DNA of 64,000 nucleotides, from contig NZ_LBMG01000016.1 in the NCBI RefSeq assembly GCF_001005315.1, forward strand, positions 59,706 to 123,705, in the 5' to 3' direction. This DNA comes from Kordia jejudonensis. GTDB lineage: Bacteria > Bacteroidota > Bacteroidia > Flavobacteriales > Flavobacteriaceae. Position 1 is the first letter of the stretch. Each line of letters opens with the position of its first letter. This document shows positions 30,051-45,170 of the stretch, one piece after another. The position numbers and the translations under genes are program-made. The notes under the pieces were generated by a model that had not been told where the DNA came from, did not search any database, and saw nothing but the letters and a program-made list of their open reading frames with translations.

Positions 30051-32084
30051 ATGAACATTTTAACGAGAATATTTCCTACAAAACATACTACAGCACCATT
30101 TTCTAAAATTGACACAAGTCAATATATGCCTGCAATTGATACCGAAATTGCACGCTCTAAAGAAGAAATACATGCCATAACCAACAACGAAAGTATTCCT
30201 ACTTTTGAAAATACGATTGAAAAGTTAGAATATGTAGGACAACAATTAGACAGAATTACGAGTATTTTTTTCAATTTAAATTCTGCCGAAACAAACGAAA
30301 CAATTCAAAAATTAGCCCAAGAAGTTTCTCCTAAATTAACCGAGTTTTCTAATGATATTACCTTAAACGAAGCGCTTTTTAAACGTGTAAAATATGTGCA
30401 TGATCATAAAGAAGATTTAGATTTGACAATAGAGCAAAAAACTTTATTAGATAAAAAGTTTAAGAGTTTTTCTCGAAATGGCGCTAATTTAGCAGAAGAT
30501 AAGAAAGAACAACTTCGTGAAATTGATAAAAAACTCTCCAAATTAAGCTTGAGTTTTGGCGAAAATGTATTGGCTGAAACTAATAAGTTTCAATTGCATC
30601 TTACAGAAGAAAAAGACGTATCAGGAATTCCGAATGGCGCACTAGAAGCTGCAAAAGCAATCGCGAAAAGTGAAAATAAAGAAGGTTGGATTTTCACACT
30701 CGATTATCCAAGTTATATTCCTTTTATGAAGTATGCCGACAATAGAGAATTACGTCAACAAATGGCAACAGCTTTTGGTTCAAAATGCTTTAAAAATGAC
30801 GAATTGGACAATCAGGCAACGGTGTTAGAAATTGCAAAACTACGCCATCAACGTGCCAATTTATTAGGCTACGAAACACATGCACATTTTGTATTAGAAG
30901 AACGGATGGCGGAAACACCTGAAAAAGTAATTTCATTCTTAAATGAATTGCTAGAAAAGGCAAAACCTGCTGCTGAACGTGAGTTTAAACAATTGGCAAA
31001 CTTTGCTAAAAAGCTAGATGGAATTGAGCAATTGCAAAGCTGGGACAATTCGTATTATTCTGAAAAGTTAAAGCAAGAATTATTCAACTTAGATGATGAA
31101 AAACTAAAACCTTATTTCAAACTTGAAAACGTTATTGATGGTGCATTTACAGTGGCTAATAAACTATTCGATTTACGTTTTGAGCAAGTTTTTGACATTG
31201 ATACGTATCATGAAGATGTAAAAACGTATGAAGTATTTGATGGTAATGATAACTTCGTTTCTGTATTTTATGCAGATTTTCATCCGCGAAAAGGAAAGCG
31301 AAATGGCGCTTGGATGACTTCCTATAAATCTCAACAACGAAAAGACGGAAAAGTAGAACGTCCGCATGTATCAATTGTATGCAATTTTACAAAACCAACC
31401 GAATCAAAACCATCTTTATTGACGTTTAATGAAGTCACAACCTTATTTCACGAATTTGGTCATGCATTACACGGAATGTTAGCAAATACAACCTATCCAA
31501 GCTTAAGCGGAACTTCTGTTTTTTGGGATTTTGTTGAATTGCCAAGTCAAATATTAGAAAATTGGTGTTACGAAGCGGAAGCGTTAGCCATTTTTGCCAG
31601 ACATTACGAAACGGATGAAGTGATTCCGATGGAATATATTGAAAAAATAAAAGCATCTGCAACCTTTTTGGAAGGCATGTCAACATTGCGTCAATTGAGT
31701 TTCGGATTGCTCGATATGAGTTGGCACGGAATTGATCCGACAGCAATTACAGATGTAAAAGCACATGAAAGCGCCGCTTTTGAAAACACGAGATTGTTCC
31801 CAGAAAATCCAAAAACAGCAATGAGCACTGCCTTTTCACACATATTTCAAGGTGGTTATTCTTCTGGATATTACAGTTACAAATGGGCAGAAGTATTAGA
31901 TGCTGATGCGTTTGAATATTTTAAAGAAAACGGAATTTTCAGCAAAGAAATCGCTTCAAAATTTGCAACACATGTATTGTCTAAAGGTGGCACAGAACAT
32001 CCTATGACTTTATACAAACGCTTCCGTGGAGAAGCACCAAAACCTGATGCTTTGCTAAAACGTGCTGGTTTATTAGTGGATTAA
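30051..32084 (+). CDS. M3 family metallopeptidase (oligopeptidase A / Dcp type)
   Basis: 677 residues, no signal peptide, so cytoplasmic. M3 zinc peptidases cleave short peptides released by other proteases. The zinc motif TLFHEFGHALHG (His467, Glu468, His471) and the third ligand in FVELPSQILENW (about 502) are intact. TSVFWDFVELPSQ and the C-terminal HPMTLYKRFRGEAP block match peptidyl-dipeptidase Dcp and oligopeptidase A. Choosing between the two names needs a tree. It is followed 30 bp later by a lipoprotein gene. Confidence 0.92.
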   Translation: MNILTRIFPTKHTTAPFSKIDTSQYMPAIDTEIARSKEEIHAITNNESIPTFENTIEKLEYVGQQLDRITSIFFNLNSAETNETIQKLAQEVSPKLTEFSNDITLNEALFKRVKYVHDHKEDLDLTIEQKTLLDKKFKSFSRNGANLAEDKKEQLREIDKKLSKLSLSFGENVLAETNKFQLHLTEEKDVSGIPNGALEAAKAIAKSENKEGWIFTLDYPSYIPFMKYADNRELRQQMATAFGSKCFKNDELDNQATVLEIAKLRHQRANLLGYETHAHFVLEERMAETPEKVISFLNELLEKAKPAAEREFKQLANFAKKLDGIEQLQSWDNSYYSEKLKQELFNLDDEKLKPYFKLENVIDGAFTVANKLFDLRFEQVFDIDTYHEDVKTYEVFDGNDNFVSVFYADFHPRKGKRNGAWMTSYKSQQRKDGKVERPHVSIVCNFTKPTESKPSLLTFNEVTTLFHEFGHALHGMLANTTYPSLSGTSVFWDFVELPSQILENWCYEAEALAIFARHYETDEVIPMEYIEKIKASATFLEGMSTLRQLSFGLLDMSWHGIDPTAITDVKAHESAAFENTRLFPENPKTAMSTAFSHIFQGGYSSGYYSYKWAEVLDADAFEYFKENGIFSKEIASKFATHVLSKGGTEHPMTLYKRFRGEAPKPDALLKRAGLLVD

Positions 32085-32114
32085 ATCTTATAAAAACACT
32101 TAAAACATAGTTGT

Positions 32115-33680
32115 ATGCGCTACCTTTTTATTTTGCTTTTGCTATGTTTTGGGTGTAAAAATACTTCCGACTCAAAAAATACGAATCCTGTTGTTGAAGA
32201 TGAGAAAGTAGCTGCAAATTTCAGTTTTGTAGACGTTGTTGAAACATACACAATAAAAGAGCCGTTTCGTCTTTGGCAATACCGTAACAACGGAAAATTG
32301 CTCGCTAAAGAAGAATTTGAAGCGTTACAATTGCAACAAATTTTTGGCGATTACAACTCCTCATTGGCGTATCGATTGTTGGCAAGCTTGAATCCTTCTA
32401 ACAGCTATAATACGCTTGTCTTTGGAATGTCTGATAATGCTACTTTTGGTGCTACACATTTGGCAACCTTTGATTCAAATTACAACTTAATCAGTCACAT
32501 TCCTGTAGATCATCACGGTCAAAAAGGCGGTTCCGTTATGATATCTTATTTGGATGGAAATTCTTTGTTTGTAGAAAATACAAAACATGATACTGCTTAC
32601 GAATTTATCATTCGCGAAAGCGGAGCAATTGAAAAGAGCAACAAGCCTGTAACCTTTAAAAAGTATCGGTATTTAGGAAAATTTAAAGGTTATCTTCATG
32701 AAATGCCAAAACGAACTGTAAAAGCAAAAAATGGTTTGCTAGTGCGTGATGCAGAAGGAAAACAGATTGGAAAAGTGGAATATGGCAATCTTGTGTATAT
32801 TATTGATTACACAAAAGATTCACTTACAATTCAGGATGAAGGAAAATCAATAAAAGCACCAAAGGCCAGAATTATACTCGATCCAAAAAAAATAACACAA
32901 GGAAAAGATTTTTACATCGAACCGTCAAATATTGGCTATGTGTTTTCAGGTTTTTTGTTCAATAATAATTCAAATTACAAAGAAGATGAGTTTCCGTATG
33001 CTTACGAATTTATACGATTGGGAACTGCCGAATTGGAAGAAAACGCAACAATTGATCTTAGAGAACTATTTGAAATTACACGTGTACAGTTCAACACATA
33101 CAAATCCAAAATCGTAAAAAAACCAACCGTTATAACAACGGACACAACATCGTATAAAAAAGGAAAAGTACTCACATTACCATTTGATAATGGCAAAAAA
33201 CTCATCCTAAAAGATTCAACGTATAAATCTGAATACAATCCTACGCGCAGTTTCAATGTATCATTCCATGAAGATTTTCCCGATACATATATGGTAAGTG
33301 AAAACATGTTTTTTATGGATGATATCTATAGAATTTTAAGCAAAAAAACGGGAGACACTTTGCACACATTTCGTGGTTATCCATACATTTCGCCTACTAA
33401 AAAATATAGTGTTGCCATTTTTCATGAGTTTGAATGCATGCAACAAACGTATATGGTTATTAACAAGCAAATGAACGATGGAACATTTCAACATTATGCG
33501 TCTTTGCAACCAAATTCATGGTCGTATCCTTTCAAATTGGATAAAAATAATAATCTTGAAAATCATTTTTCTATTCATTGGATTTCGGATACAGAATTCA
33601 TTGTATATGCTAAAAATGCTGAGGAATGTTACCTAGAAAACGCTTTAGATTATTTCTATTTAAAGTACAAAATCAAGTAA
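32115..33680 (+). CDS. Putative lipoprotein, uncharacterised
   Basis: 521 residues. The short signal MRYLFILLLLCFGC ends in a lipobox (LCFGC, Cys14). The body is beta-rich with no domain that I can name. Two segments resemble beta-propeller or SH3-like strands (VRDAEGKQIGKVEYGNLVYIIDY near residue 210). It lies 30 bp after the M3 peptidase gene and may be in the same transcript. It is predicted to be membrane-anchored. Function unknown. Confidence 0.65.
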   Translation: MRYLFILLLLCFGCKNTSDSKNTNPVVEDEKVAANFSFVDVVETYTIKEPFRLWQYRNNGKLLAKEEFEALQLQQIFGDYNSSLAYRLLASLNPSNSYNTLVFGMSDNATFGATHLATFDSNYNLISHIPVDHHGQKGGSVMISYLDGNSLFVENTKHDTAYEFIIRESGAIEKSNKPVTFKKYRYLGKFKGYLHEMPKRTVKAKNGLLVRDAEGKQIGKVEYGNLVYIIDYTKDSLTIQDEGKSIKAPKARIILDPKKITQGKDFYIEPSNIGYVFSGFLFNNNSNYKEDEFPYAYEFIRLGTAELEENATIDLRELFEITRVQFNTYKSKIVKKPTVITTDTTSYKKGKVLTLPFDNGKKLILKDSTYKSEYNPTRSFNVSFHEDFPDTYMVSENMFFMDDIYRILSKKTGDTLHTFRGYPYISPTKKYSVAIFHEFECMQQTYMVINKQMNDGTFQHYASLQPNSWSYPFKLDKNNNLENHFSIHWISDTEFIVYAKNAEECYLENALDYFYLKYKIK

Positions 33681-33701
33681 AATTTTCTAAAAATTTAAAA
33701 T

Positions 33702-33735
33702 AAACTTTCAATAATTTTTGAAAGTTTAAAACTTT
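33702..33735. promoter_or_regulatory. Overlapping inverted repeats, candidate operator of the regulator gene
   Basis: A perfect inverted repeat, AAACTTTCA (33702-33710) and TGAAAGTTT (33719-33727), spacer ATAATTTT. A second repeat AAAGTTT/AAACTTT (33721-33735) overlaps it. Together they place three copies of the half-site AAACTTT between the expected -33 and -7 elements of the promoter at 33739-33746. Confidence 0.7.
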
Positions 33736-33738
33736 TCA

Positions 33739-33746
33739 TACATTTG
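33739..33746 (+). promoter_or_regulatory. Predicted -7 element of the GbsR-type regulator promoter
   Basis: TACATTTG matches TAnnTTTG. It ends 4 bp before the ATG at 33751, so the transcription start would be at or next to the A of the start codon (a leaderless or nearly leaderless mRNA). A TTTTTG at 33715-33720 is a possible -33 element, 18 bp away. Confidence 0.55.
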
Positions 33747-33750
33747 TACT

Positions 33751-34254
33751 ATGAATTACAAAGAAGCAAAAGATAAATTTATACAAACATGGGGATCGTT
33801 AGGAACCTTGTGGGGAATTAACAAAGCAATGGCACAAATACATGCGTTACTTTTTATCTCTCCTGAGCCATTATCTATGGAAGATGTGATGGAAGAATTG
33901 CACATTTCAAGAGGAAATACGAGCATGAACTTACGCCAATTAATTGATTGGGGAATTGTATACAAAACATCAAAGGTTGGCGAACGTAAAGAGTACTTCG
34001 CGTCAGAGAAAGACATCAACGAGCTGGCAAAACAAATAGCACGCGAACGCAGCAGAAGAGAAATTCAGCCAACACTAAAAGTGCTAAAAGAAGTGAGCAG
34101 TATTGAAGATGATGGCTCTGAAAAAACAAAAGAGTTCATAAGGCAAACAAAAGCACTTCATGACTTGGCATCAACGGCAGATTCAATCATGAATAGAGTT
34201 GTAAATCAAGAATCAAACTGGTTGACAAAAACCTTTATGAAACTCTTAAAATAA
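33751..34254 (+). CDS. GbsR/MarR family transcriptional regulator
   Basis: 167 residues. This is the GbsR subgroup of winged-helix MarR-like regulators (known for choline/glycine-betaine response in Bacillus). The N-terminal region FIQTWGSLGTLWGINKAMAQIHALL and the wHTH MEDVMEELHISRGNTSMNLRQLIDWGIVYKT (about residues 46-76) match. A basic DNA-binding wing and a C-terminal helical dimerisation region follow. It precedes a nine-gene block on the same strand and has matching inverted-repeat sites in its own promoter and in front of the next gene. The inference is that it represses or senses for that block. The ligand is unknown. Confidence 0.85.
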   Translation: MNYKEAKDKFIQTWGSLGTLWGINKAMAQIHALLFISPEPLSMEDVMEELHISRGNTSMNLRQLIDWGIVYKTSKVGERKEYFASEKDINELAKQIARERSRREIQPTLKVLKEVSSIEDDGSEKTKEFIRQTKALHDLASTADSIMNRVVNQESNWLTKTFMKLLK

Positions 34255-34258
34255 CCAT

Positions 34259-34283
34259 AAAAGGAATTCATTTTCCTTTTTTA
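34259..34283 (+). terminator. Intrinsic terminator after the regulator gene
   Basis: AAAAGGAA (34259-34266), 6-base loop, TTCCTTTT (34273-34280), followed by T residues. It follows the stop codon by 4 bp, so the regulator can be transcribed separately from the downstream block. Confidence 0.6.
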
Positions 34284-34295
34284 TTTCAATCTATG

Positions 34296-34313
34296 TTTCA
34301 GTAATTACTGAAA
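34296..34313. promoter_or_regulatory. Perfect palindrome, candidate operator of the downstream block
   Basis: TTTCAGTAATTACTGAAA is an 18-bp perfect palindrome, 20 bp before the ATG of the 111-aa gene. With its flank it matches the 33706-33727 site: TTTCA[A/G]TAATT[T/A][T/C]TGAAAGTTT in both. A TATGTTTC at 34293-34300, close to TAnnTTTG, overlaps it. Confidence 0.7.
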
Positions 34314-34333
34314 GTTTTAAAAACACAATAGTT

Positions 34334-34669
34334 ATGAAATTCATTTATTACACCAACAAAATCGTTTTAGTATTAACAATTATAGGATATTCAATGCTCT
34401 ATCCTGGACTTTTTATGCAAGTAATATTAGGAGGAATTCAAGTACTATTTTTCCTTGTATTACTCTTCAATTATGATAAGTTTTCTAAAAAAATAAAAGA
34501 TCATTTACTTATTTATGGAATAATAGCAAGTTGTTATCTTCTAGTGCTATTCTCCAACCCAGAAACTTCAAATGATGTCATTACCATGATCTGCATGACA
34601 GTAATTCCTATGATTATTGCTAGCTATTTTACGTATATCGTTTACGAACTTAAAAAGAAAGTATTATGA
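34334..34669 (+). CDS. Small integral membrane protein
   Basis: 111 residues with four predicted membrane helices (IVLVLTIIGYSMLYPGLFM, VLFFLVLLFNYD, LLIYGIIASCYLLVLFS, IPMIIASYFTYIVYEL). There is no signal peptide or known motif. It is the first gene after the operator palindrome. Its stop overlaps the start of the methyltransferase gene by 4 bp (ATGA), so translation is coupled. Function unknown; it may anchor or serve the membrane step of the pathway. Confidence 0.7.
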   Translation: MKFIYYTNKIVLVLTIIGYSMLYPGLFMQVILGGIQVLFFLVLLFNYDKFSKKIKDHLLIYGIIASCYLLVLFSNPETSNDVITMICMTVIPMIIASYFTYIVYELKKKVL

Positions 34670-35556
34670 AAAATCCATGTCTTCTCTCCTATTTAAAAAA
34701 GGAATTCAACACATCGCCTTCAAACAAAGAACAAGTCATTGATTTTTATAATGAAGCAACTGAAGATTATCGTTTTTGGAGTCACGATCTAAACATGCAC
34801 TTTGGCTATTTTGTTCCGTTCAAAACCAATCTTCTAAAACGTGATAGCATGTTGAATGAAATGAATAAAGAAGTATTTCAACGTTTGAACATCACGGACA
34901 AAAAGAAACATATTGTAGATGTAGGTTGCGGAATGGGCGCTTCTATTCGCTATGGAATTTCAAATCATCCAAATCTTGCGGTAACAGGTTTAACGATTTC
35001 TCCATTTCAGGTTGAAAAAGGAAACGAATTACTAAATACCCATCGAGGAACGATCTTAAATAGAGATTATCGTAATACATTTTTAAAACCAAATTCTTTT
35101 GATGGAGCCATGGCAATTGAAAGTTTGTGCCATACAGGTTGTAGCAAAGATGCGTTGGAGGAAACGTATAGAATCCTCAAGCCAAATTCAACGTTTGTAA
35201 TTGCTGATGCCTTTACGAAGAAAGATTTCAAGGAAATGAATCCGCTAGCAAAATATACCTACAAAGGTTTATGCGAATCTTGGAGTTTGGAAAACTTAGG
35301 TAATGTACATCGTGTGAAGGAAGATTTAGAACGTATAGGTTTTAAAGATGTAAAAGTGCAAAACATTTGGTACCGAGTGGCGCCTTCTGTATTACACGTT
35401 CCTTTTACGATCAGTGCTTTCATCTTGAAGAAACTCTTTAAAAAAGAACCGCTAAAACCTGAAAGTATTAAAAATTTAAAAGGCTCATTCTTTGCTTTGT
35501 TATCAAGTTTAAGCCTCACAAACTTTGGCTATTATATCATCACTGCTAAAAAGTAA
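34666..35556 (+). CDS. SAM-dependent methyltransferase (UbiE / tocopherol MT-like)
   Basis: 296 residues. Class I methyltransferase with motif I VDVGCGMGASIRYG (from about residue 84), followed by VTGLTISPFQVEKGNELL. This ISPxQ motif is typical of the gamma-tocopherol, sterol and cyclopropane-fatty-acid group, which act on lipophilic substrates. Motif post I/II ...NSFDGAMAIESLCHTG is also present. The upstream gene overlaps it by 4 bp. Together with the SRPBCC, TIGR01777 and DUF2071 neighbours it points to modification of a small hydrophobic molecule; the substrate is inferred only at this general level. Confidence 0.85.
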   Translation: MKNPCLLSYLKKEFNTSPSNKEQVIDFYNEATEDYRFWSHDLNMHFGYFVPFKTNLLKRDSMLNEMNKEVFQRLNITDKKKHIVDVGCGMGASIRYGISNHPNLAVTGLTISPFQVEKGNELLNTHRGTILNRDYRNTFLKPNSFDGAMAIESLCHTGCSKDALEETYRILKPNSTFVIADAFTKKDFKEMNPLAKYTYKGLCESWSLENLGNVHRVKEDLERIGFKDVKVQNIWYRVAPSVLHVPFTISAFILKKLFKKEPLKPESIKNLKGSFFALLSSLSLTNFGYYIITAKK

Positions 35557-35560
35557 TCGT

Positions 35561-35914
35561 ATGAATTTCAACATCATTAGTTACTTACTATACATTCCAA
35601 TTATATTTTTTATCACGGTAAAAGTAGGTTGGATACTTTACAAGAATGGAGAAGTATTTCTGTATACTATATTAAGTAATGAAACTGAAATTGTAGAAAG
35701 TCTCAATAAAATATTATTAATCGGTTATTACCTCATTAACTTGGGTGCAGCCACCATAACTATTGCGTTTTGGGAAACCGTAACCACAAGTTTTGAAATG
35801 ATTAATGCGCTTTCAAACGTATTAGGAACCACAATTTTAATACTTGCGCTCATGCATTACAATAATATTTTTTGGATCAAATTTTTAAATCGAAAAAAAC
35901 AAACAATAAACTAA
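35561..35914 (+). CDS. Small membrane protein, paralog 1
   Basis: 117 residues from the ATG at 35561, which follows the methyltransferase stop codon by 4 bp; a longer frame starting at TTG 35525 would overlap that gene. Three membrane helices are predicted (LLYIPIIFFITVKVGWIL, LLIGYYLINLGAATITIAFW, NVLGTTILILALMHY). The layout (IPI....KV..IL.K.G..F....L....E......NK.L.IGYYLINLG) is shared with the next gene, so the two are paralogs. No known function. Confidence 0.7.
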   Translation: MNFNIISYLLYIPIIFFITVKVGWILYKNGEVFLYTILSNETEIVESLNKILLIGYYLINLGAATITIAFWETVTTSFEMINALSNVLGTTILILALMHYNNIFWIKFLNRKKQTIN

Positions 35915-35925
35915 CACACATTATT

Positions 35926-36333
35926 ATGGAATCATCAAAGGTTGTCATCGCATATTTTATCTATCTTCCAATCGTTATTGGACTTACAGTATTTGTCTCT
36001 AAAAAATTATTTGAAAGTGGAAAAAGCTTCATGATTGATATTTTTAAAGGACAAGAAAACATTGCAATTGCTACAAATAAATTATTTGAAGTTGGCTTTT
36101 ATTTAATCAATATTGGCTGTGCATTAATCATCATGAAAGTCTACGGATACAATTCAAATTATCCAATTAGCAACCAAAGTCTCATTGAAGTAATGGGAAT
36201 AAAAATAGGCGGATTTTCTGTGTATTTGGGTATAATGTTATTTTTAAACCTTTTCTTTTTCCTTAGAGGACGAAAAGTAGCTAGAAGCTCTCAAAAACCT
36301 GTAACTACAGAAGAATTTACAAAGTTCAATTAA
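35926..36333 (+). CDS. Small membrane protein, paralog 2
   Basis: 135 residues from the ATG at 35926; a longer frame from 35872 would overlap the preceding gene. Three membrane helices (VVIAYFIYLPIVIGLTVFV, LFEVGFYLINIGCALIIM, GGFSVYLGIMLFLNLFFFL) and a basic tail (RGRKVARSSQK). It shares the helix order and the NK.L.(I/V)G(Y/F)YLIN(L/I)G motif with the preceding gene. The pair probably forms one membrane complex or duplicated scaffold. Unknown function. Confidence 0.7.
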   Translation: MESSKVVIAYFIYLPIVIGLTVFVSKKLFESGKSFMIDIFKGQENIAIATNKLFEVGFYLINIGCALIIMKVYGYNSNYPISNQSLIEVMGIKIGGFSVYLGIMLFLNLFFFLRGRKVARSSQKPVTTEEFTKFN

Positions 36334-36346
36334 TAAAAAGATTACC

Positions 36347-37306
36347 ATGAACACAATTCTAAAGAAAAATAAATACCTGACTTTTGTTCTTGCATACATT
36401 GTCACAGCGTTACTTTCAACACTATTTGTATACATTGGAGTAAACATTTTTAACGATTATGGCTGGACAGTTTTTGCGCTAATTCCATTCTTTTCAGGTG
36501 TTACAACGACACTAATTCTCAGTATCAACGGACATGTCACTTTTGCAAGTGCCTTTAAAAATGCATTACTCGTACTTTTAGTTTGCTCGTTGTCCCTATT
36601 ATTTTTTGCGATTGAAGGTATCATTTGCATCGTCATGGCAATGCCAATCGCAATTCCGTTTGTCATCCTTGGCGCATTTGTAGGTTACAAAATTCAGCGT
36701 AGAAAAGCTTCAGGAATCAAAATGATAGTATTATACATTGTGATAGTTCCATCGTTGTTGGCTTTTGAAAATCATACAAATACTGAACCAACTGTATTTC
36801 CAATTCAGTCAAGTATTGTCATCAATGCGCCAATTGAAGAAGTTTGGAAACAAGTAATTGAATTTCCTCAGATGGAACCACCAACAGAGTTTCTATTCAA
36901 AACAGGAATTGCCTATCCAATCAATGCAAATATCGAAGGAAAAGGCGTTGGTGCAATTCGGTATTGCAACTTTTCTACGGGAAGCTTTGTAGAACCAATT
37001 ACTGCTTGGAATGAACCAAATTTACTAGCTTTTTCAGTAAAAGAACAACCAATTCCAATGCAAGAAATAAGCATGTACGATATCAATCCTGCACATTTGC
37101 ATGAATATTTTGTATCTAAAAAAGGACAATTTAAACTCACAAAATTAGCAGGCGGAAAAACATTGGTCGAAGGCACAACGTGGTATTACAATAAAATTCA
37201 ACCAGAAATGTACTGGAAAATATGGAGCAAATACATCATTCACAAAATTCATCATCGTGTGTTGAACCATATCAAAGTAACATGTGAAACAACTCAAAAA
37301 TCTTAA
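36347..37306 (+). CDS. Membrane protein with C-terminal SRPBCC (START-like) domain
   Basis: 319 residues. The first ~150 residues have four membrane helices (LTFVLAYIVTALLSTLFVYIG, WTVFALIPFFSGVTTTLILS, ALLVLLVCSLSLLFFAI, IAIPFVILGAFVGYKI). A SRPBCC domain follows from about residue 160 (SSIVINAPIEEVWKQVIEFPQM, start of the typical helix-grip fold). SRPBCC proteins hold hydrophobic ligands in a deep cavity. The fusion to membrane helices places this ligand-binding domain at the inner membrane. It starts 13 bp after the paralog gene, so it is in the same operon. Confidence 0.8.
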   Translation: MNTILKKNKYLTFVLAYIVTALLSTLFVYIGVNIFNDYGWTVFALIPFFSGVTTTLILSINGHVTFASAFKNALLVLLVCSLSLLFFAIEGIICIVMAMPIAIPFVILGAFVGYKIQRRKASGIKMIVLYIVIVPSLLAFENHTNTEPTVFPIQSSIVINAPIEEVWKQVIEFPQMEPPTEFLFKTGIAYPINANIEGKGVGAIRYCNFSTGSFVEPITAWNEPNLLAFSVKEQPIPMQEISMYDINPAHLHEYFVSKKGQFKLTKLAGGKTLVEGTTWYYNKIQPEMYWKIWSKYIIHKIHHRVLNHIKVTCETTQKS

Positions 37307-37337
37307 ATAAAGATTCCCACTTTCTTGGGAAATACAT

Positions 37338-38258
37338 ATGAAAAAAATAGTCATCGCAGGCGGAAGCGGATTTCTTGGACGCGCATTAATTGATTTTTAT
37401 CTTCCAAAAGGTTATGAAATCGTGGTGCTTTCGCGAAAAGCCAAAGAAACAGGAAACGACATGCTGCGTTATGTAGCATGGAATGCAAAAACATTGGACA
37501 TTTGGTTAACGGAACTCGAAGGAATTGAAGCATTAATAAATCTCACAGGAAAATCTGTAGATTGTAGATACAACCCAAAAAACAAAGCTGAAATTTTAAA
37601 CTCCAGAGTACAATCTACGGAAGTGTTAGGAGAAGCAATTAAAGCTTGTGCTGTGCCACCAAAATTTTGGATCAACTCGTCAACGGCAACCATATATGAG
37701 CATTCGCTAGAAAAAGAAATGACGGAAAGCACAGGAATTATAGGAAACGATTTCTCGATGAATGTTGCCAAATCGTGGGAAGAAGCGTTTCACAATACGA
37801 AAACACCAAGAACGCAAAAAATTGCCTTGCGAACATCTATTGTATTAGGAAAAAATGGTGGTGCTTTTCTTCCGCTAAAAAATCTAACAAAAGCTGGACT
37901 TGGCGGTACGCAAGGAAACGGAAACCAAAAAGTAAGCTGGATTCATGAACACGATTTCTGTCGCGCAATTCACTTTTTAATCACAAAAAACAAAGCAGGA
38001 ATCTTTAATGTTACCGCACCAAATCCGTTGCCAAACAAAACATTTATGCAAACCTTGCGACGCATTTTAAAAATTCCGTTTGGATTGCCACAGCCAAAAT
38101 GGTTGCTAAAACTTGGTGCGAGAATCATAAAAACGGAAGCTGAACTGATTTTAAAAAGCCGATTCGTGATTCCTGAAAAATTGCTCACTGCTGGTTTTCA
38201 ATTTAACTATCCAACAGCAGAAATGGCGATTCAAGAAATTATACAACGAAAAAATTAA
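37338..38258 (+). CDS. TIGR01777-family SDR (YfcH-like nucleotide-sugar epimerase-like)
   Basis: 306 residues. Extended SDR fold with a GGSGFLGRAL N-terminal Rossmann motif (about 7-16), the family-specific YVAWNAKT, LINLTGKSVDCRY (about 68-80), NSRVQST, and WINSSTATIYEH. A C-terminal DUF1731 tail (KLLTAGFQFNYPTAEMAIQEI) completes the TIGR01777 signature. Members lack a defined substrate. It follows the membrane-SRPBCC gene by 31 bp and precedes the DUF2071 gene by 11 bp, an arrangement that suggests a common function. The assignment to the family is firm. Confidence 0.9.
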   Translation: MKKIVIAGGSGFLGRALIDFYLPKGYEIVVLSRKAKETGNDMLRYVAWNAKTLDIWLTELEGIEALINLTGKSVDCRYNPKNKAEILNSRVQSTEVLGEAIKACAVPPKFWINSSTATIYEHSLEKEMTESTGIIGNDFSMNVAKSWEEAFHNTKTPRTQKIALRTSIVLGKNGGAFLPLKNLTKAGLGGTQGNGNQKVSWIHEHDFCRAIHFLITKNKAGIFNVTAPNPLPNKTFMQTLRRILKIPFGLPQPKWLLKLGARIIKTEAELILKSRFVIPEKLLTAGFQFNYPTAEMAIQEIIQRKN

Positions 38259-38269
38259 ACAAAAATACT

Positions 38270-38980
38270 ATGAGTTTTTTAACAGCCGAATGGCGAAAAT
38301 TAGTCTTTATAAATTATACGGTACAACCTGAATTGTTACAAGAATACGTTCCAAAAGGGACAACTTTAGATAGTTTCAACGGTAAATGTTTTGTCAGTGT
38401 CATTGGTTTCTTGTTTAAAAACACAAAAGTCTTGGGTTGTAAAATGCCAGGATTGCACACTTTTGAGGAAGTCAACTTACGATTTTACGTAAAAAGAGAA
38501 GAAAATGGTGTTGTAAAAAGAGGTGTTGTATTTGTGCAAGAAATTGTACCAAAACGGTTATTAAGCTTTGTTGCCAACACAGTTTACAACGAACATTACG
38601 TCACACGACCAATGTCTCATAGTTGGAATATAACTCCAGCAACGATAGACATTTCATATTCATGGATTCATCAACATAAAGAACAATCGATTGCTATTAA
38701 AGCTACGAACAATCCGAAATCTTTTCCTGAAAATTCAGAAATCGAATTCATCTCAGAGCATTATTTTGGTTATACCAAATACAACAAAAACAAAACCTTT
38801 GAGTATGAAGTGACACATCCAAAATGGTTGTATTACAAGGTAAATGAATATGCAATAAATGTTGATTTTGAATTAAATTACGGGAAGAAATTTGCACATC
38901 TTACCACACAAACGCCAGATTCTGTTTTCGTCATGGAAGGTTCAGCAATTACTGTGGAACCGAAAAAAACACTATCCTAA
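38270..38980 (+). CDS. DUF2071 (YqjF-like) protein
   Basis: 236 residues. Sequence landmarks of DUF2071 are present: WRKLVFINYTVQPELLQEYVPKGT (about 7-30), SVIGFLFKNTKVLG, and RFYVKR...RGVVFVQEIVPK. The family is predicted to adopt a beta-barrel lipocalin-like fold; its biochemical function is not established. It is fourth-from-last in the putative operon, and DUF2071 genes often sit next to SRPBCC/TIGR01777 genes in other Bacteroidetes as I recall. No signal peptide. Confidence 0.85.
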   Translation: MSFLTAEWRKLVFINYTVQPELLQEYVPKGTTLDSFNGKCFVSVIGFLFKNTKVLGCKMPGLHTFEEVNLRFYVKREENGVVKRGVVFVQEIVPKRLLSFVANTVYNEHYVTRPMSHSWNITPATIDISYSWIHQHKEQSIAIKATNNPKSFPENSEIEFISEHYFGYTKYNKNKTFEYEVTHPKWLYYKVNEYAINVDFELNYGKKFAHLTTQTPDSVFVMEGSAITVEPKKTLS

Positions 38981-39043
38981 AAAACATAAACACCTGATTC
39001 TACATAAATTATTATTTTTAACTAAACATAGAAAGCTTACATC

Positions 39044-39658
39044 ATGAAATCTATACAACTAATACTACTCACTTTTTTTGCTGGAGTTTTGTACACCAAT
39101 GCGCAAACCATGGTATTTGACCAAGAATATTACTTTATCGCAAAAGGTGAAGTCAAACAACTCAAACAAATACAAGATTCTGTATACATTTCTGACTGTA
39201 ATGATTTTCAAAAATGTAATGAAATACCGAGATTCAGTTATAAAGTTTTAAACGATTCAGTGATTGATAAAAATACCAAAACATACATTTTAAAAGGAAA
39301 AAGATACAATCATAAAAATCGTAAAGCTGAAGAAAAGAAAGTAATTATTACTAAAATAAAAAACAATAGAATAAAACTTCAAGAGGTGTATGGAAAAGCT
39401 GGTAAAAGAAAACTAGAAACGTCCATATTATATGCTACATCAGAATTAGTACCATTAAAACCAATTTCTGAAATTACACAAGAAGAAACTGAAGATATTT
39501 TTGAACAAATGGTTGCATACATGAACTATTTAAAGACTACAGAAATCAAGCGGGAAAAATATATGAGTTGGGAAAAAATTAATGATTTGGTTATTGCAAA
39601 AGGATATTCTCCAATTGGTGCAGACGAAGAATTGGGTAAAAAATCGGAGAAATTTTAA
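39044..39658 (+). CDS. Secreted hypothetical protein
   Basis: 204 residues. The signal peptide starts MKSIQLILLTFFAGVLYTNAQ. The mature part is highly charged (KGKRYNHKNRKAEEKK, KERIKLQEVYGKAGKRK) with a predicted beta-sheet start and a helical C-terminal half. No domain recognised. It overlaps the next gene boundary exactly (stop 39658, ATG 39659), so the two are translated together. It is predicted periplasmic. Confidence 0.65.
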   Translation: MKSIQLILLTFFAGVLYTNAQTMVFDQEYYFIAKGEVKQLKQIQDSVYISDCNDFQKCNEIPRFSYKVLNDSVIDKNTKTYILKGKRYNHKNRKAEEKKVIITKIKNNRIKLQEVYGKAGKRKLETSILYATSELVPLKPISEITQEETEDIFEQMVAYMNYLKTTEIKREKYMSWEKINDLVIAKGYSPIGADEELGKKSEKF

Positions 39659-40111
39659 ATGACAAAAATCCATTTAAAAACAACTATAAACGCTCCCATT
39701 CAATTGGTTTTTGATCTTTCCAGAGATATTTCTGAGCATGAAGCTTCCACCAACAATACACGTGAAAAAGCCATTGCAGGACACACTTCTGGAAAAATTG
39801 AATTGGGAGAAACAGTTACGTGGCGTGCCAAACATTTTGGATTGTATTTGCAACATACAAGTATCATTTCCGCCATGGAATCGCCAACGTATTTTGTAGA
39901 TGAAATGGTAAAAGGTGTGTTTAAAAGTTTCCATCATGAACACATATTCAAAGAAAACAAAAACGGCACCGAAATGATTGACAACTTAAGCTACGAAGTT
40001 CCGTATGGTATTTTTGGAAAGCTGTTTGACTATCTCATCTTAAAATCATATCTGACAAAATTTCTACGAGAACGAAATCAACATATAAAACAACGCGCTG
40101 AAGTTTTATAA
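39659..40111 (+). CDS. SRPBCC family protein
   Basis: 150 residues. SRPBCC/START-like fold: HLKTTINAPIQLVFDLSRDISEHE (about 4-28) is the typical strand-helix start, followed by GETVTWRAKHFGLYLQHTSII and a long C-terminal helix. The family binds lipids, polyketides or steroid-like molecules. Its ATG directly follows the stop of the secreted gene. It closes the nine-gene block. The pairing of this soluble SRPBCC protein with the membrane-SRPBCC protein of the same block is notable. Confidence 0.85.
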   Translation: MTKIHLKTTINAPIQLVFDLSRDISEHEASTNNTREKAIAGHTSGKIELGETVTWRAKHFGLYLQHTSIISAMESPTYFVDEMVKGVFKSFHHEHIFKENKNGTEMIDNLSYEVPYGIFGKLFDYLILKSYLTKFLRERNQHIKQRAEVL

Positions 40112-40532
40112 TGTACTAATATTTCAATGTGGTGATTTGATGATTTGAAAATGGTAAATGTAAAAGTTATCGAGAAACTTCAACTGAACAAAAAACAAAG
40201 AACAGAGAACAGAGAGAAAAGAACAGAGAACAAAGAACAGAGAGAAAAGAGAAAAGAACATCATTTGTCAATTCGTGACAAAAAAATAAATGCTAAATGT
40301 AAAAGTTATCTAGAAACTTCAACTAAACAAATCCACGAATAACAAAAAACAAACAACAAATTAGAAAAATATCGAGAAACATCAACTAAACAACTCCACA
40401 AACAACGAACAACGAACAACCAGCAACCAACAATCAACCAGCAACAAACTGCTTAATTCCTGATAGCCAAAAGAATGATTTTTTATTCTAACAATTATCA
40501 TTTACATTTGATGAAAATAATTTAGACCATCA
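40112..40532. repeat. Degenerate repeat region with AACAGAGA-type low-complexity tract
   Basis: Non-coding. It starts with a TGATTTGATGATTTGAAAAT segment that resembles the flank of the repeat units of arrays 1 and 2. Three copies of an AAAGTTATCGAGAAACTTCA-like block lie at about 40156-40191, 40295-40330 and 40366-40393 (last one partial). A purine-rich AACAGAGA repeat fills 40198-40260, and an (AAC)-rich tract 40394-40460. The last 70 bp before the sigma gene are AT-rich promoter sequence. A 65-codon ORF at 40145 is only a translation of the low-complexity tract. Confidence 0.6.
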
Positions 40533-41087
40533 ATGCCAAATCATCAACTTGATCCTAATAAATGGATTACGCTTTATGCGGATTACCTTTTCAACTATAC
40601 CATTGTTAGGGTAAAAGATAGAGAAACTGCGCAAGACTTAGTCCAAGAAACATTTTTTGCTGGATTAAAATCAATGGCTAATTTCAAAGGAGAAGCTTCT
40701 GAACGAACGTGGCTAATTTCTATTTTGAAACGAAAAATCATTGATCATTACCGTAAAATAAATTCTAAAAAAGGACAAGCTGAAGTACGTATCAATTACA
40801 ATTCTGATGCAGAATCAGAAGGCGATTGGCTAGAAGAGCGCGTTGCTGACGGTTACGACAAAAATGCCGAAGATCAAATTCAGAATGAAGAACTCGGACT
40901 TGCCATTGAAGATTGTTTGGACAAACTTCCTGAAAAACAAGCTAAAATCTTTAAAATGAAAACCATCCTCGGTTACGAAACGGAAACGATTTGTAATGAA
41001 CTAAATATAACTGCGTCTAACCTTTGGGTTATTATTCACAGAGCACGTACAGCGCTTTCTGGATGCCTCGAACAGAATTGGTATTAA
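40533..41087 (+). CDS. ECF-type RNA polymerase sigma factor
   Basis: 184 residues. Sigma-70 region 2 is clear (VRVKDRETAQDLVQETFFAGLKSMANFKGEASERTWLISILKRKI, about residues 25-70), and region 4 is at the C-terminus (LPEKQAKIFKMKTILGYETETICNELNITASNLWVIIHRARTALSGCL, about residues 134-181). A charged linker lies between. ECF sigma factors direct polymerase to stress- or envelope-related promoters. A small gene 11 bp downstream is the likely anti-sigma factor or partner. Confidence 0.9.
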   Translation: MPNHQLDPNKWITLYADYLFNYTIVRVKDRETAQDLVQETFFAGLKSMANFKGEASERTWLISILKRKIIDHYRKINSKKGQAEVRINYNSDAESEGDWLEERVADGYDKNAEDQIQNEELGLAIEDCLDKLPEKQAKIFKMKTILGYETETICNELNITASNLWVIIHRARTALSGCLEQNWY

Positions 41088-41098
41088 TAATAAATTAC

Positions 41099-41356
41099 AT
41101 GAGTACAAAATATAAATTTTTTATATCCTGCGAAGAAGCAAAACATATTTGTGACAAATCACAATATGGAGAAGCTAGCTTCTGGGAAAAAGTAAAACTA
41201 AACGTTAGACTATCTTGGTGTCGCATTACAAGAGGATATTCAAGCAACAATAATAAATTGACAAAATTGGTGCAAAAATCGAAGATAGACGTGATCGAAG
41301 AAGATAAAAAAGCAGAAATGCAACGCAAACTTCAAGAAGAAATGAGCAAATATTAG
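41099..41356 (+). CDS. Small anti-sigma-like protein with degenerate zinc-finger pattern
   Basis: 85 residues from the ATG at 41099, 11 bp after the sigma factor stop. A longer frame from 41024 would overlap the sigma gene. The layout (FISCEEAKHICDKSQYGEASFWEKVKLNVRLSWCRITRGYS) resembles the ZAS zinc-finger anti-sigma pattern in which an N-terminal cysteine helix precedes a HxxxCxxC. Here only one cysteine (LSWC) is present where two are expected, and a metal site is therefore doubtful. No transmembrane helix. It is probably a cytoplasmic partner of the sigma factor. Confidence 0.6.
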   Translation: MSTKYKFFISCEEAKHICDKSQYGEASFWEKVKLNVRLSWCRITRGYSSNNNKLTKLVQKSKIDVIEEDKKAEMQRKLQEEMSKY

Positions 41357-41357
41357 T

Positions 41358-42173
41358 CTACGAAAAAAGTAGTACTAAAAACCATACAATCGGAATACTT
41401 TCTACCCAAAAAGATGTAAAGTATTTCGATTTTTTTATGCTTGCTTGCCACACTACAATTGCCAGCAATACACTCAAACCAATGGTACTATAAAATATTG
41501 CTAAAAATGTTTCTGTTTGCCAGAATTCAATCACTACAAAAAGTACAATCCAAATGTAGCCAAGCAACTTAGTTTTGGCAACTCCAATACGTTGTGGCAA
41601 GGTTTCCAATGCTGGCGCATCAAACTGCAAGTCACAAATCTCAAACGGAATCATTAAAATTAGAATCAACAACATACGTTGTATCATAAAAAATATTGTC
41701 GTCTGATTCAATTCAAAAATAGTTGCATTTACCAAAGGCAACACAACTGTTACGCCTGTCCAACACAGGGCAACAATTAAAATTTTAAATTGCGGTAAAG
41801 TTCTAAAATTTTTCTGATTGGGTAAATACGGAAGAATATACAACGATGACAACACACTCAATCCAATGGCCCAAAGTAATGTTTCCCATTGTAAATAATA
41901 TGCGTAAAACAACGCCAATCCGAAACACACAAAACTCAACAATTGAATCCATTTCATATACCGTGAAGCAACAAAAAAATAACGCTTTGCCGAACTGCCA
42001 TACTTGATAAAATTATATGTAACAATTGTACCATAAAATGTGAAATACAACACAGCTTCATCATATGGTAAGTGAAACAATAACAGTGTACTATACGTCA
42101 ATGCATACACGCTTAACGCAATGTGAATACTGCTATCTAAATAAAAATTGAAAAGTTTTTTCAAGACATTCAT
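41358..42173 (-). CDS. Polytopic membrane protein, UbiA-like
   Basis: 271 residues from the ATG at 42171-42173. A longer frame to 42299 would add a hydrophobic, low-complexity tail inside the promoter of gcvP and is not credible. About eight transmembrane helices are predicted, with the ordering (IALSVYALTYSTLLLFHLP, AVLYFTFYGTIVTYNFIKYG...) of UbiA-type prenyltransferases. But the two aspartate-rich motifs (NxxxDxxxD) are not clear (EICDLQFDAPALETLP is a partial match). It is therefore a UbiA-like protein of unknown activity. It is convergent with the sigma-factor pair, ends 2 bp from it, and is divergent from gcvP. Confidence 0.6.
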   Translation of the reverse strand: MNVLKKLFNFYLDSSIHIALSVYALTYSTLLLFHLPYDEAVLYFTFYGTIVTYNFIKYGSSAKRYFFVASRYMKWIQLLSFVCFGLALFYAYYLQWETLLWAIGLSVLSSLYILPYLPNQKNFRTLPQFKILIVALCWTGVTVVLPLVNATIFELNQTTIFFMIQRMLLILILMIPFEICDLQFDAPALETLPQRIGVAKTKLLGYIWIVLFVVIEFWQTETFLAIFYSTIGLSVLLAIVVWQASIKKSKYFTSFWVESIPIVWFLVLLFS

Positions 42174-42271
42174 CGCACAAAAATAAAGAAACTGTTCATA
42201 ACCGATAATTTTCGTTAAAAACTTTCCACATTCGTCACAAAATAAAAGTAAAAGAAGTAATTTTTTAATCG

Positions 42272-42279
42272 TACTTTTG
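42272..42279 (+). promoter_or_regulatory. Predicted -7 element of the gcvP promoter
   Basis: TACTTTTG matches TAnnTTTG, 44 bp before the gcvP ATG. No clear -33 element. The expected leader is about 38-40 nt. Confidence 0.5.
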
Positions 42280-42323
42280 CATATCAAAAAAAAACACAAC
42301 TACAAAAGAAAAATATTAAGTCG

Positions 42324-45170
42324 ATGAATACGGATTCTTTTTCACTTAGACATAATGGAACACGTGCCAAAGATGTTCCTTACATGTTAAAAACAATCGG
42401 GGTTACTTCTCTAGAACAACTTATTGACGAGACTATTCCTGACGAAATTCGATTGAATTCAGCGCTAGACCTTCCAGCAGGATTAAGCGAAAATGAATTC
42501 CTATCACACATGCAAAACCTTGCAGGACACAATAAAATATTTAAATCATATATCGGACTAGGATATCACGAACCTGTAACACCAGCCGTGATTCAACGTA
42601 ATATATTTGAAAATCCAGGTTGGTATACCGCATATACGCCATATCAGGCAGAAATTGCACAAGGAAGACTAGAAGCTTTATTAAATTTTCAAACAGTTGT
42701 TACAGACTTAACAGGAATGGAAATTGCAAACGCTTCCCTTTTAGATGAAAGTACAGCTGCCGCAGAAGCAATGGCAATGTTATTTGCTGTGCGATCAAGA
42801 ACACAGAAAAAAGCTGGCGTTTCAAAATTCTTTGTCTCAAACGAAGTATTGCCACAAACGATTTCATTGCTAAAAACAAGAGCCATTCCAATCGGAATTG
42901 AATTGGTTTTTGGAGATCATACTACATTTGACTTCTCAGATGAATTTTTTGGAGCATTACTACAATATCCAGGAAAACACGGGCAAATTTTCGATTACAG
43001 AGCATTTACAGAAAAAGCAAATGCAAACGAAATCAAAGTTGCTGTTGCCGCAGATATTTTAAGCTTAGTATTACTAGAATCTCCTGGAAGTTTTGGAGTT
43101 GATGTCGTTGTCGGAACAACACAGCGTTTCGGAATTCCATTAGGTTATGGTGGTCCTCACGCCGCATTTTTTGCTACAAAAGAAGCTTACAAACGATACT
43201 TGCCAGGTCGAATTATTGGAGTAACGAAAGATATGGACGACAATCGTGCATTGCGTATGGCGCTTCAAACACGTGAGCAACACATCAAACGAGACAAAGC
43301 AACTTCAAATATCTGTACTGCACAAGTATTATTGGCAGTTATGGCAGGAATGTACGCCGTATATCATGGTCCAAACGGATTAAAATACATCGCTAATAAA
43401 GTACATTCAAATGCTGTAAATCTTACAAATACTTTAGAAAAATTAGGTTTCGAACAAACAAACTCAGCGTATTTTGATACCATTGTTATCAAAGCTGATG
43501 CTGGAAAAGTAAAAGAAGTTGCCGAACAAAACGAAGTGAACTTCTTGTACATTGACGAAGATACAGTTGGAATTTCTATCAATGAAGCGACAACTGCAAA
43601 CGATCTAAATGACATTGCGTTCATCTTTGCAACAGTAGCCGAAAAAGAAACCATCGAAATAGAAAACACATACACATCAAAAATATTACCATCAGTTTCC
43701 AGAGAAACTTCTTTCATGGAAGAGCCTGTATTTAACAGTTACCACTCGGAAACAGAAATGATGCGTTACATCAAAAAATTAGAGCGTAAAGATTTATCCT
43801 TAAACCATTCTATGATTGCGTTAGGTTCATGTACAATGAAGTTAAACGCTGCCGCAGAAATGTTATCGTTAAGTTCAGCTCAGTGGAATAACATTCATCC
43901 ATTTGTGCCAGTTGAACAAGCAGAAGGATATCAAATCTTATTAAAAGAATTAGAGCATCAACTGAATGTTGTGACTGGTTTTGCAGGAACTTCATTGCAA
44001 CCAAACTCTGGAGCGCAAGGAGAATTCGCAGGATTAATGGTTATTCGTGCATATCATGAATCAAGAGGTGACACACACAGAAACATTTGTTTAATTCCAG
44101 CTTCTGCACACGGAACAAATCCAGCAAGTGCTGTCATGGCAGGAATGAAAGTAGTCGTTACCAAAACTTCGGAAGACGGAAACATTGATGTAGACGATTT
44201 ACGCGAAAAAGCATTGGTACACAAAGATAACTTAGCGGCATTAATGGTAACATATCCATCAACGCACGGTGTTTTTGAAGCTACCATCAAAGAAATTACA
44301 CAAATCATTCACGATAATGGTGGACAAGTATATATGGATGGTGCAAACATGAACGCGCAAGTTGGATTGACAAATCCTGCAACCATTGGCGCAGATGTTT
44401 GTCACCTAAACTTACACAAAACATTTGCCATTCCACATGGTGGCGGCGGACCTGGTGTTGGCCCAATTTGTGTTGCAGCACACTTAGTACCATTTTTACC
44501 AAGCAATCCGATCATAAAAACTGGTGGAGAAAAAGCAATTACAGCCATTTCTTCAGCACCTTGGGGAAGCTCTTTAGTTTGTTTAATTTCTTACGGATAC
44601 ATTGCAATGTTAGGTTCAAGAGGTTTAACAGAAGCTACAGAATATGCTATCTTAAATGCAAACTATATCAAAGCGCGCTTGGAAGACGAATACAATATTC
44701 TATACACCAACAAACGTGGAAGATGTGCGCATGAAATGATTATTGATTGCAGACCATTTAAACAACTTGGAATTGAAGTGACAGACATTGCAAAACGTTT
44801 AATGGATTACGGATTTCACGCACCAACGGTATCATTTCCAGTAGGTGGAACCATCATGATTGAACCAACAGAAAGTGAAAGCTTAGCAGAATTAGATACA
44901 TTCTGTGATGCAATGTTGGCGATCAGAAGTGAAATTTCAGAAGCAAAAGCAGACAACACAAACAATGTGTTAAAAAATGCACCACATACCTTAGAAATGT
45001 TAACGGCAGAAGAATGGAAACTTCCATACTCACGTCAAAAAGCAGCATTTCCATTACCATACGTTGCAGATAACAAATTCTGGCCATCCGTTAGAAGAGT
45101 TGATGACGCGTACGGAGATCGAAATTTAATCTGTACTTGTGCGCCAATTGAAGCGTACGCAGAAGCATAA
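42324..45170 (+). CDS. gcvP: Glycine dehydrogenase (decarboxylating), P protein
   Basis: 948 residues, a full-length fused P protein. With PLP it decarboxylates glycine and passes the aminomethyl group to the H protein in the glycine cleavage system. The N-terminal half ends around residue 450. The C-terminal half has the PLP lysine in HLNLHKTFAIPHGGGGPGVGP (Lys699), the conserved SCTMKLNAA and the GTNPASAVMAGM segment. No gcvH or gcvT is next to it, as in many Bacteroidetes where the genes are scattered. A strong terminator follows directly. Confidence 0.97.
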   Translation: MNTDSFSLRHNGTRAKDVPYMLKTIGVTSLEQLIDETIPDEIRLNSALDLPAGLSENEFLSHMQNLAGHNKIFKSYIGLGYHEPVTPAVIQRNIFENPGWYTAYTPYQAEIAQGRLEALLNFQTVVTDLTGMEIANASLLDESTAAAEAMAMLFAVRSRTQKKAGVSKFFVSNEVLPQTISLLKTRAIPIGIELVFGDHTTFDFSDEFFGALLQYPGKHGQIFDYRAFTEKANANEIKVAVAADILSLVLLESPGSFGVDVVVGTTQRFGIPLGYGGPHAAFFATKEAYKRYLPGRIIGVTKDMDDNRALRMALQTREQHIKRDKATSNICTAQVLLAVMAGMYAVYHGPNGLKYIANKVHSNAVNLTNTLEKLGFEQTNSAYFDTIVIKADAGKVKEVAEQNEVNFLYIDEDTVGISINEATTANDLNDIAFIFATVAEKETIEIENTYTSKILPSVSRETSFMEEPVFNSYHSETEMMRYIKKLERKDLSLNHSMIALGSCTMKLNAAAEMLSLSSAQWNNIHPFVPVEQAEGYQILLKELEHQLNVVTGFAGTSLQPNSGAQGEFAGLMVIRAYHESRGDTHRNICLIPASAHGTNPASAVMAGMKVVVTKTSEDGNIDVDDLREKALVHKDNLAALMVTYPSTHGVFEATIKEITQIIHDNGGQVYMDGANMNAQVGLTNPATIGADVCHLNLHKTFAIPHGGGGPGVGPICVAAHLVPFLPSNPIIKTGGEKAITAISSAPWGSSLVCLISYGYIAMLGSRGLTEATEYAILNANYIKARLEDEYNILYTNKRGRCAHEMIIDCRPFKQLGIEVTDIAKRLMDYGFHAPTVSFPVGGTIMIEPTESESLAELDTFCDAMLAIRSEISEAKADNTNNVLKNAPHTLEMLTAEEWKLPYSRQKAAFPLPYVADNKFWPSVRRVDDAYGDRNLICTCAPIEAYAEA

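Follow-up and report, generated by a model that had tools for sequence, protein, structure and literature searches.

The closest described counterparts of the locus analysed here, a block of one GbsR-type regulator gene (gbsR) and nine downstream genes (the cargo) at positions 33,702 to 40,111 of a 64,000-nucleotide stretch of the Kordia jejudonensis genome (the window), are GbsR-type repressors of other bacteria. In the sections considered here of two reports (PMC7396694, PMC6207618), Bacillus subtilis GbsR and OpcR belong to the same regulator family and use AT-rich inverted-repeat operators; GbsR forms a roadblock past the start site and OpcR lies over the -35 region, and these modes match both operator positions of the present locus. 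Set against the same sections, the Kordia block holds no osmolyte genes, its regulator lacks the aromatic cage, its operators have another sequence and spacer, and a single locus combines the two operator positions. In the portions considered of PMC11837568 and PMC6207618, CydE of Alishewanella and CioR of Chromobacterium are GbsR-type proteins, each of which represses the cytochrome bd operon that encodes it; the regulator gene comes first, the cargo follows, and the whole is autorepressed, as we propose here. Their cargo is fixed (cytochrome bd), whereas that of the present locus varies and has its own operator. The corresponding portion of the 2018 survey reports "no consistent picture" for the neighbourhoods of Bacteroidetes GbsR and assigns these proteins no process (PMC6207618); the present locus offers a picture.

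Among open-licence PMC articles, we found no paper on GbsR in Flavobacterium or on GbsR operons in flavobacteria, and none joining any two of TIGR01777, DUF2071, and SRPBCC; for GbsR neighbourhoods in Bacteroidetes there were two papers, the 2018 survey being one. An earlier prediction made from the letters of the window alone (the original prediction) had stated that described pathways do not match this gene set, and that statement holds. The conserved unit consists of the regulator, two operators, and a pool of exchangeable cargo. The reading we favor, with a probability of roughly 0.6, is a regulator-anchored island in which GbsR would repress itself and membrane-remodelling cargo from the two operators.

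Candidate operators around gbsR

The control region of the window contains the following elements, with distances in nucleotides (nt).

33706..33723: operator A, TTTCA-N8-TGAAA, 45 nt ahead of gbsR; its wide form, AAACTTTCAATAATTTTTGAAAGTTT, spans 33702-33727
33739..33746, plus strand: predicted Bacteroidota -7 promoter element, TACATTTG, 4 nt ahead of the gbsR ATG
33751..34254, plus strand: gbsR, a GbsR-type MarR regulator of 167 amino acids
34259..34280, plus strand: terminator-like hairpin ending in a T-rich tail, past gbsR and ahead of operator B
34296..34313: operator B, TTTCAGTAATTACTGAAA, past the end of gbsR; the first cargo gene starts 20 nt on

The palindromes at 33706 and 34296 had no mention in the original prediction. 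The operator pair was first seen in the window and then in the first relatives, 80 named loci, and a wider phylum set; the motif TTTCA-N8-TGAAA was fixed on the window and L032 to L069 before its trial on the 80 named loci. The family set comprises 113 non-redundant loci (38 from family genomes, 80 named contigs, and the window, minus six duplicates), nearly all of them from Flavobacteriaceae. Operator A is present in 111 of these loci, the two without it being L063, which begins at a contig end, and L118; operator B is present in all 113. By chance, the motif turned up 9 times in 5650 windows of 230 bp that had been shuffled. The extended motif TTTCANTANTTNNTGAAAGTTT has two exact sites in the 5.36-Mb genome of K. 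jejudonensis, namely operators A and B, and allowing up to two mismatches yields ten rows there versus two for the reversed control. Among 99 relatives, 23 contain the exact extended motif (reversed control, 0); 15 of these are known gbsR carriers, and the other 8 are same-genus genomes that were not checked singly. The first gene behind operator B belongs to any of ten different labelled families. As an RNA hairpin, the operator B repeat folds no better than shuffles over 51 nt (z -0.75). We infer that GbsR is the protein binding both palindromes, and the operator evidence lends support to the original prediction of a co-directional block under GbsR control, made up of membrane genes and of others that are probably of lipophile type. 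A second complete operator precedes the second cargo gene in 6 of 152 loci (L040, L125, L145, L160, L177, and L199); its distance from the start of that gene is 16 to 18 nt in four of them and 2 nt in the other two, and the upstream AAAAATTT element is also repeated at this second operator.

Operator A would overlap the -33 region of the gbsR promoter. In the window, the TTG of its right half lies 18 to 20 nt ahead of the -7 box. Downstream of operator A, 108 of the 111 loci have an exact TAnnTTTG, with the ATG 4 nt past the box in 96 of the 108, and a TTG within the operator stands 18 to 20 nt ahead of the box in 90 of the 111. According to the sections considered of a Flavobacterium johnsoniae study, probable promoters show 4 to 5 nt from the -7 box to the start site, and leaders are longer than 10 nt in 87% of such transcripts (PMC6847099). 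Because the -7 box is 4 nt from the ATG, this box-to-start distance predicts a leaderless gbsR mRNA, the initiation of which GbsR bound at operator A would stop.

At operator B, GbsR would block cargo expression, either as a roadblock to polymerase arriving from the gbsR promoter or by covering a weak cargo promoter. The distance from the end of operator B to the ATG has a median of 18 nt, and an exact TAnnTTTG is found between operator B and the cargo in none of the 113 loci; such a boxless interval fits a roadblock of the kind used by B. subtilis GbsR in the account considered (PMC7396694). In loci of the Kordia/Aquimarina type, however, a promoter of the cargo itself would be likelier than a roadblock; in these loci a terminator-like hairpin stands ahead of operator B. 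The hairpin in the window was obtained by RNA folding of 34250-34336 (z -2.87) and is absent from the output of a simple terminator scan. A terminator-like element, identified by a crude pattern, occurs in 41 of 45 loci with a long gap between gbsR and operator B, which also counts against a roadblock.

Variable cargo at one chromosomal site

The cargo of the family set falls into 70 arrangements in 113 loci. The commonest genes are SDR (72), MT (59), B (59), SRP (43), M2 (42), M1 (41), and c3a (36); rarer ones are a gene that we take to be DCC-type (14), DUF2071 (13), a DoxX-DUF2071b-MT2-c3b module (13), the MSRP type (6: 5 MSRP and 1 MSRPb), and desaturases (4 at most, 3 and 1). Two loci, L043 and L121, show no cargo ahead of the contig end. 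Some genes stay together: M1 and M2 co-occur in 41 of the 42 loci holding either, and the four-gene DoxX module is intact in 13 of 13. In the window, the cargo is as follows.

34334..34669, plus strand: cargo B, small membrane protein of 111 amino acids
34666..35556, plus strand: MT, S-adenosylmethionine-dependent methyltransferase of 296 amino acids
35561..35914, plus strand: M1, small membrane protein of 117 amino acids, paralogue of M2
35926..36333, plus strand: M2, small membrane protein of 135 amino acids, paralogue of M1
36347..37306, plus strand: MSRP, 319 amino acids, a membrane part plus an SRPBCC-like part
37338..38258, plus strand: SDR, TIGR01777-family oxidoreductase of 306 amino acids, gbsR-linked subfamily
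38270..38980, plus strand: DUF2071 protein of 236 amino acids
39044..39658, plus strand: SEC, 204 amino acids, secreted by prediction
39659..40111, plus strand: SRP, free SRPBCC-like protein of 150 amino acids

The list of open reading frames (ORFs) for 33751-40111 bears out the one regulator and nine same-strand genes first proposed. The spacings within the cargo are, in order, -4, 4, 11, 13, 31, 11, 63, and 0 nt, and the close contacts that had been pointed out are real: the gene at 34666 overlaps the prior stop by 4 nt, that at 35561 starts 4 nt past a stop, and that at 39659 abuts. The starts of M1 and M2 were placed at ATG codons inside the listed ORFs 35525 and 35872, respectively.

Changes in cargo were counted on a tree built from GcvP for 102 loci, which gave minimum numbers of 32 for M1/M2, 29 for B, 26 for c3a, 25 for SDR, 21 for MT, and 5 for SRP. 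By locus, c3a and M1/M2 occur together in 4, c3a alone in 32, M1/M2 alone in 38, and neither in 39. In 20 independent pairs, 11.2 comparisons were opposite and 1.6 the same (median p 0.013, range 0.001-0.146); in the other direction, 27 independent pairs gave 11.8 opposite and 1.4 the same (median p 0.006, range 0.0005-0.146). Across the species tree, then, c3a tends to stand in for M1/M2 and M1/M2 for c3a. Correlations of protein distances with those of GcvP (rho) were 0.71 for M2, 0.69 for MT, 0.62 for SRP, 0.57 for M1, 0.47 for SDR, 0.22 for c3a, and 0.17 for B, as compared with 0.57 for the sigma factor and 0.59 for gbsR. These distances give no sign of wholesale cargo transfer, a candidate that was rejected. 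In L039 (identical to L153), the SDR gene is decayed, with 2 TGA and 8 TAA inside, and the methyltransferase is fragmented, pointing to loss of cargo by decay.

Among 199 family genomes screened at E 1e-20, gbsR is found in 39, one copy each. M1/M2 (28 matches in 14 genomes) and MT (13 matches in 13 genomes) always lie within 4 kb of gbsR, and of 23 matches to the gbsR-type SDR, 22 are beside it; the exception is G138, in which SDR is on another contig and the gbsR contig stops about 280 bases past gbsR. The set as such is not conserved, which goes against one expectation of the original prediction; what does hold in relatives is that, in the 199 genomes, M1/M2 and MT were found only beside gbsR and that the operator pair is constant. 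The chromosomal site is marked in the window by four genes.

30051..32084, plus strand: left landmark, which we take to be an M3-type peptidase gene
40533..41087, plus strand: right landmark, extracytoplasmic function (ECF) sigma factor gene
41358-42299, minus strand: presumably a UbiA-like gene, next after the ECF sigma gene
42324-45170: presumably GcvP, next after the UbiA-like gene

Of 67 loci with enough flank, 63 lie between the M3 peptidase gene on the upstream side and, on the downstream side, the sigma gene, the UbiA-like gene, or GcvP; L125, L131, L134, and L160 are the four that do not. Eighteen gbsR-less genomes were chosen by best sigma-gene match and read over 9 to 12 kb each; the M3, sigma, and UbiA-like genes are present in all 18 and GcvP was seen in 17, and no gbsR, cargo gene, or palindrome was found in the part read. 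The end of the M3 gene is at most 151 bases from the sigma gene in 13 of these genomes, and other genes lie between them in 5. In four family genomes (L066 to L069), gbsR sits elsewhere than at the usual site. The interval on the M3-peptidase side of gbsR varies too; in the window, 32115-33680 encodes a 521-amino-acid protein without a Pfam match and without a relative in the first 38 loci.

Outside the family, operator A is present in 15 of 19 loci, operator B in 6, and SDR in 8; L175 was left out of the phylum set, as no gbsR ORF was picked there. In another family of the order, L202 and L203 hold gbsR with the complete operator pair, together with M2 or SDR. Distant GbsR genes such as L179 and L180 lack both operators and the cargo. 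At L170 and L200, GbsR and operator A precede a gene for a 650-amino-acid transketolase-like protein (DXS-like, by eye), and the usual cargo is absent. L178, from a distant family of the phylum, has a palindrome before gbsR and, after it, one M1/M2-like gene alone, and is perhaps the smallest version of the island.

Competing explanations

One fixed nine-gene pathway, biosynthetic or ligand-handling, would account for the close spacing on the same strand and for the way M1-M2 and the DoxX module hold together. With 70 arrangements in 113 loci, this explanation was rejected on the arrangement counts, and we consider it improbable: single-gene cargo exists (SDR alone in L061; DUF2071 alone in L126, L132, and L133), and the exact set of the window is absent from all other loci compared, which speaks against the single pathway toward which the original prediction leaned. 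Equally poor odds attach to a hot spot of unrelated genes beside a self-regulating GbsR, which could explain the other inserts between the M3 peptidase and sigma genes in 5 of the 18 gbsR-less genomes and the additional gene in that interval of the window (32115-33680). Such a hot spot does not predict operator B ahead of the first cargo gene in every family-set locus, whichever gene that is, nor the absence of M1/M2 and MT away from gbsR in the 199 genomes; moreover, at L066 to L069, which are other chromosomal sites, gbsR keeps its operators, and several of these loci share the cargo as well. A choline/glycine-betaine osmostress regulon, as in B. subtilis, draws on family membership: the regulator exceeds the cutoff of the MarR_2 winged-helix model (33.1 versus 27 bits), its nearest solved chain is MJ223 (1ku9, E 1.5e-21), a full-length match to that fold over profile positions 3-152 of 167, and there is a weak match to CudC. 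The nearest named GbsR is from a Kordia sp. (91% identity). However, the CudC match is far below the equivalog cutoff (53.1 bits, and 52.6 in a second scoring, versus 218 bits), and no gbsAB, opu, other osmolyte, or cyd genes were found beside gbsR among the labelled cargo or the unlabelled cargo read. B. subtilis GbsR has six Phe residues in an aromatic cluster near the linker, and GbsR proteins without this cage respond to other inducers, according to the portion considered of PMC6207618. Over the 44 residues that follow the wing, 102 of 109 proteins have no aromatic residue, 6 have one, and 1 has two; the counting pattern matched 109 of the 113 GbsR proteins (4 unmatched), with no residue-by-residue alignment to B. 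subtilis. A choline sensor was rejected on this absence of the choline-cage aromatics; the inducer is probably not choline, and we regard an osmostress regulon as very improbable.

A more serious possibility, though still on the unlikely side, is that the cargo differences arose solely by differential loss from one large operon of the ancestor, without any passage of genes from genome to genome. Cargo distances mostly follow GcvP distances, the order B, c3a, M1M2, MT, SDR, SRP is often preserved, and the decayed SDR and fragmented methyltransferase of L039 show the process at work. On the other hand, at least 32 (M1/M2) and at least 26 (c3a) changes are needed on the tree, gene orders are permuted, and the six loci in which the second gene has a full operator of its own look as though the first gene had arrived with an operator. 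Several observations weigh against the regulator-anchored island that we favor. Differential loss may account for much without exchange between species because the distances of MT, M1, M2, and SRP track GcvP as those of the sigma gene do. Some sign tests of the c3a/M1M2 exchange get no lower than p 0.146, and SRP changes only five times on the tree, so that exchange is not free for all cargo. Operator B is missing in 13 of 39 phylum-set loci. In addition, TAnn directly precedes the TTTC of operator B in 35 of 113 loci (background, 437 of 5527 TTTCA, 8%), and AnTTT, as part of AAAATTT, stands at a fixed 12 to 13 nt from operator B in 44 of 49 short spacers; these signals favor a promoter of the cargo itself over a roadblock. 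On the cargo side, the SRPBCC scores are under the cutoff and the M2 model is poor. A tentative extension of the island reading, which we think rather doubtful, is that "operator plus leader" is the exchange unit: the fixed repressor would hold the slot, and units of an operator and a membrane gene would enter at the front and replace each other while sensor and switch are kept. If so, the six two-operator loci, in which the first gene lies between operators, would be exchange units in transit.

Cargo families and possible role of the island

In the island reading, gbsR occupies one chromosomal site, with the same palindrome ahead of it and ahead of its species-dependent cargo; a signal would release GbsR, the cargo would be turned on, and the membrane would be remodelled. 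The recurring kinds of cargo are small membrane proteins together with a methyltransferase, SDR, DUF2071, and SRPBCC proteins, to which desaturases are added in some species. This composition points to action on membrane lipids or membrane-soluble compounds, which the cargo might modify or shield, the species differing in cargo and reaching the same end. If true, GbsR regulators of this type would govern a membrane module that is dedicated and whose genes are exchangeable, seen here in 39 of the 199 family genomes and also in other families of that class; M1/M2, c3a, B, DUF2071, and the gbsR-linked TIGR01777 subfamily, which are families without an assigned function, would be tied to one switch; and a ready operator and the prediction of a leaderless, autorepressed regulator mRNA would be at hand.

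Of the family names first given to these genes, those of the regulator (MarR winged helix), TIGR01777 (SDR, 269 bits; cutoff, 207), and DUF2071 (182.4 bits; cutoff, 27) all stand above their model cutoffs. For SRPBCC, both scores (27.2 and, for MSRP, 19.2) fall under the Pfam cutoff of 27.4. A UbiE/tocopherol-type methyltransferase was too specific a name, since MT reaches 30.0 bits in the UbiE/MenG model against a cutoff of 216. MT also scores 25.1 in the CMAS Pfam model (cutoff, 27), to which its fold is similar; the solved structures most closely related to it are those of RebM/AtmM, TleD, MitM, phosphoethanolamine methyltransferases, and mycolic-acid synthases. The predicted structure of MT (pLDDT 82) comes closest to RebM/AtmM, and phosphoethanolamine, mycolic-acid, and farnesyl-diphosphate methyltransferases rank lower. 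M1 and M2 are indeed paralogous small membrane proteins (26% identity). M1 is without a Pfam family, and in a homologue search with M1/M2, the 120 best of 1918 proteins are named merely "hypothetical," "membrane," or "integral membrane protein." The predicted structure of M2 has three long helices at low confidence (pLDDT 69, pTM 0.46). Cargo B, a fast-evolving family, matches PRA1 of Pfam at 16.4 (cutoff, 30.1). For SEC, BLAST at 0.01 over 157 other loci returned no relatives; SEC-like ORFs suspected by eye in L081 and L083 were dropped, as BLAST at the same threshold gave no match in the loci.

An anti-phage role was rejected, since PADLOC gave weak regulator and methyltransferase-domain matches and nothing meaningful; a tRNA-anchored mobile island was likewise rejected, with no tRNA in 20000-50000. 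No Rfam RNA element was found in 32000-42500.

In Proteobacteria, operons induced by light or singlet oxygen (LitR, ChrR) bring together a TIGR01777 SDR, SRPBCC proteins, and lipid-modifying methyltransferases. Their regulators are other than that of the island. ThyD of Anabaena, a thylakoid membrane protein that acts in high-light acclimation, is related to the SDR of the window, which scores 179.9 bits in the ThyD equivalog model, below the cutoff of 400; the portion considered of the ThyD report mentions no GbsR setting (PMC12288457). A distant TIGR01777 paralogue is encoded elsewhere in the K. jejudonensis genome (G000:C136:24327-25232) and also occurs in many family genomes without gbsR.

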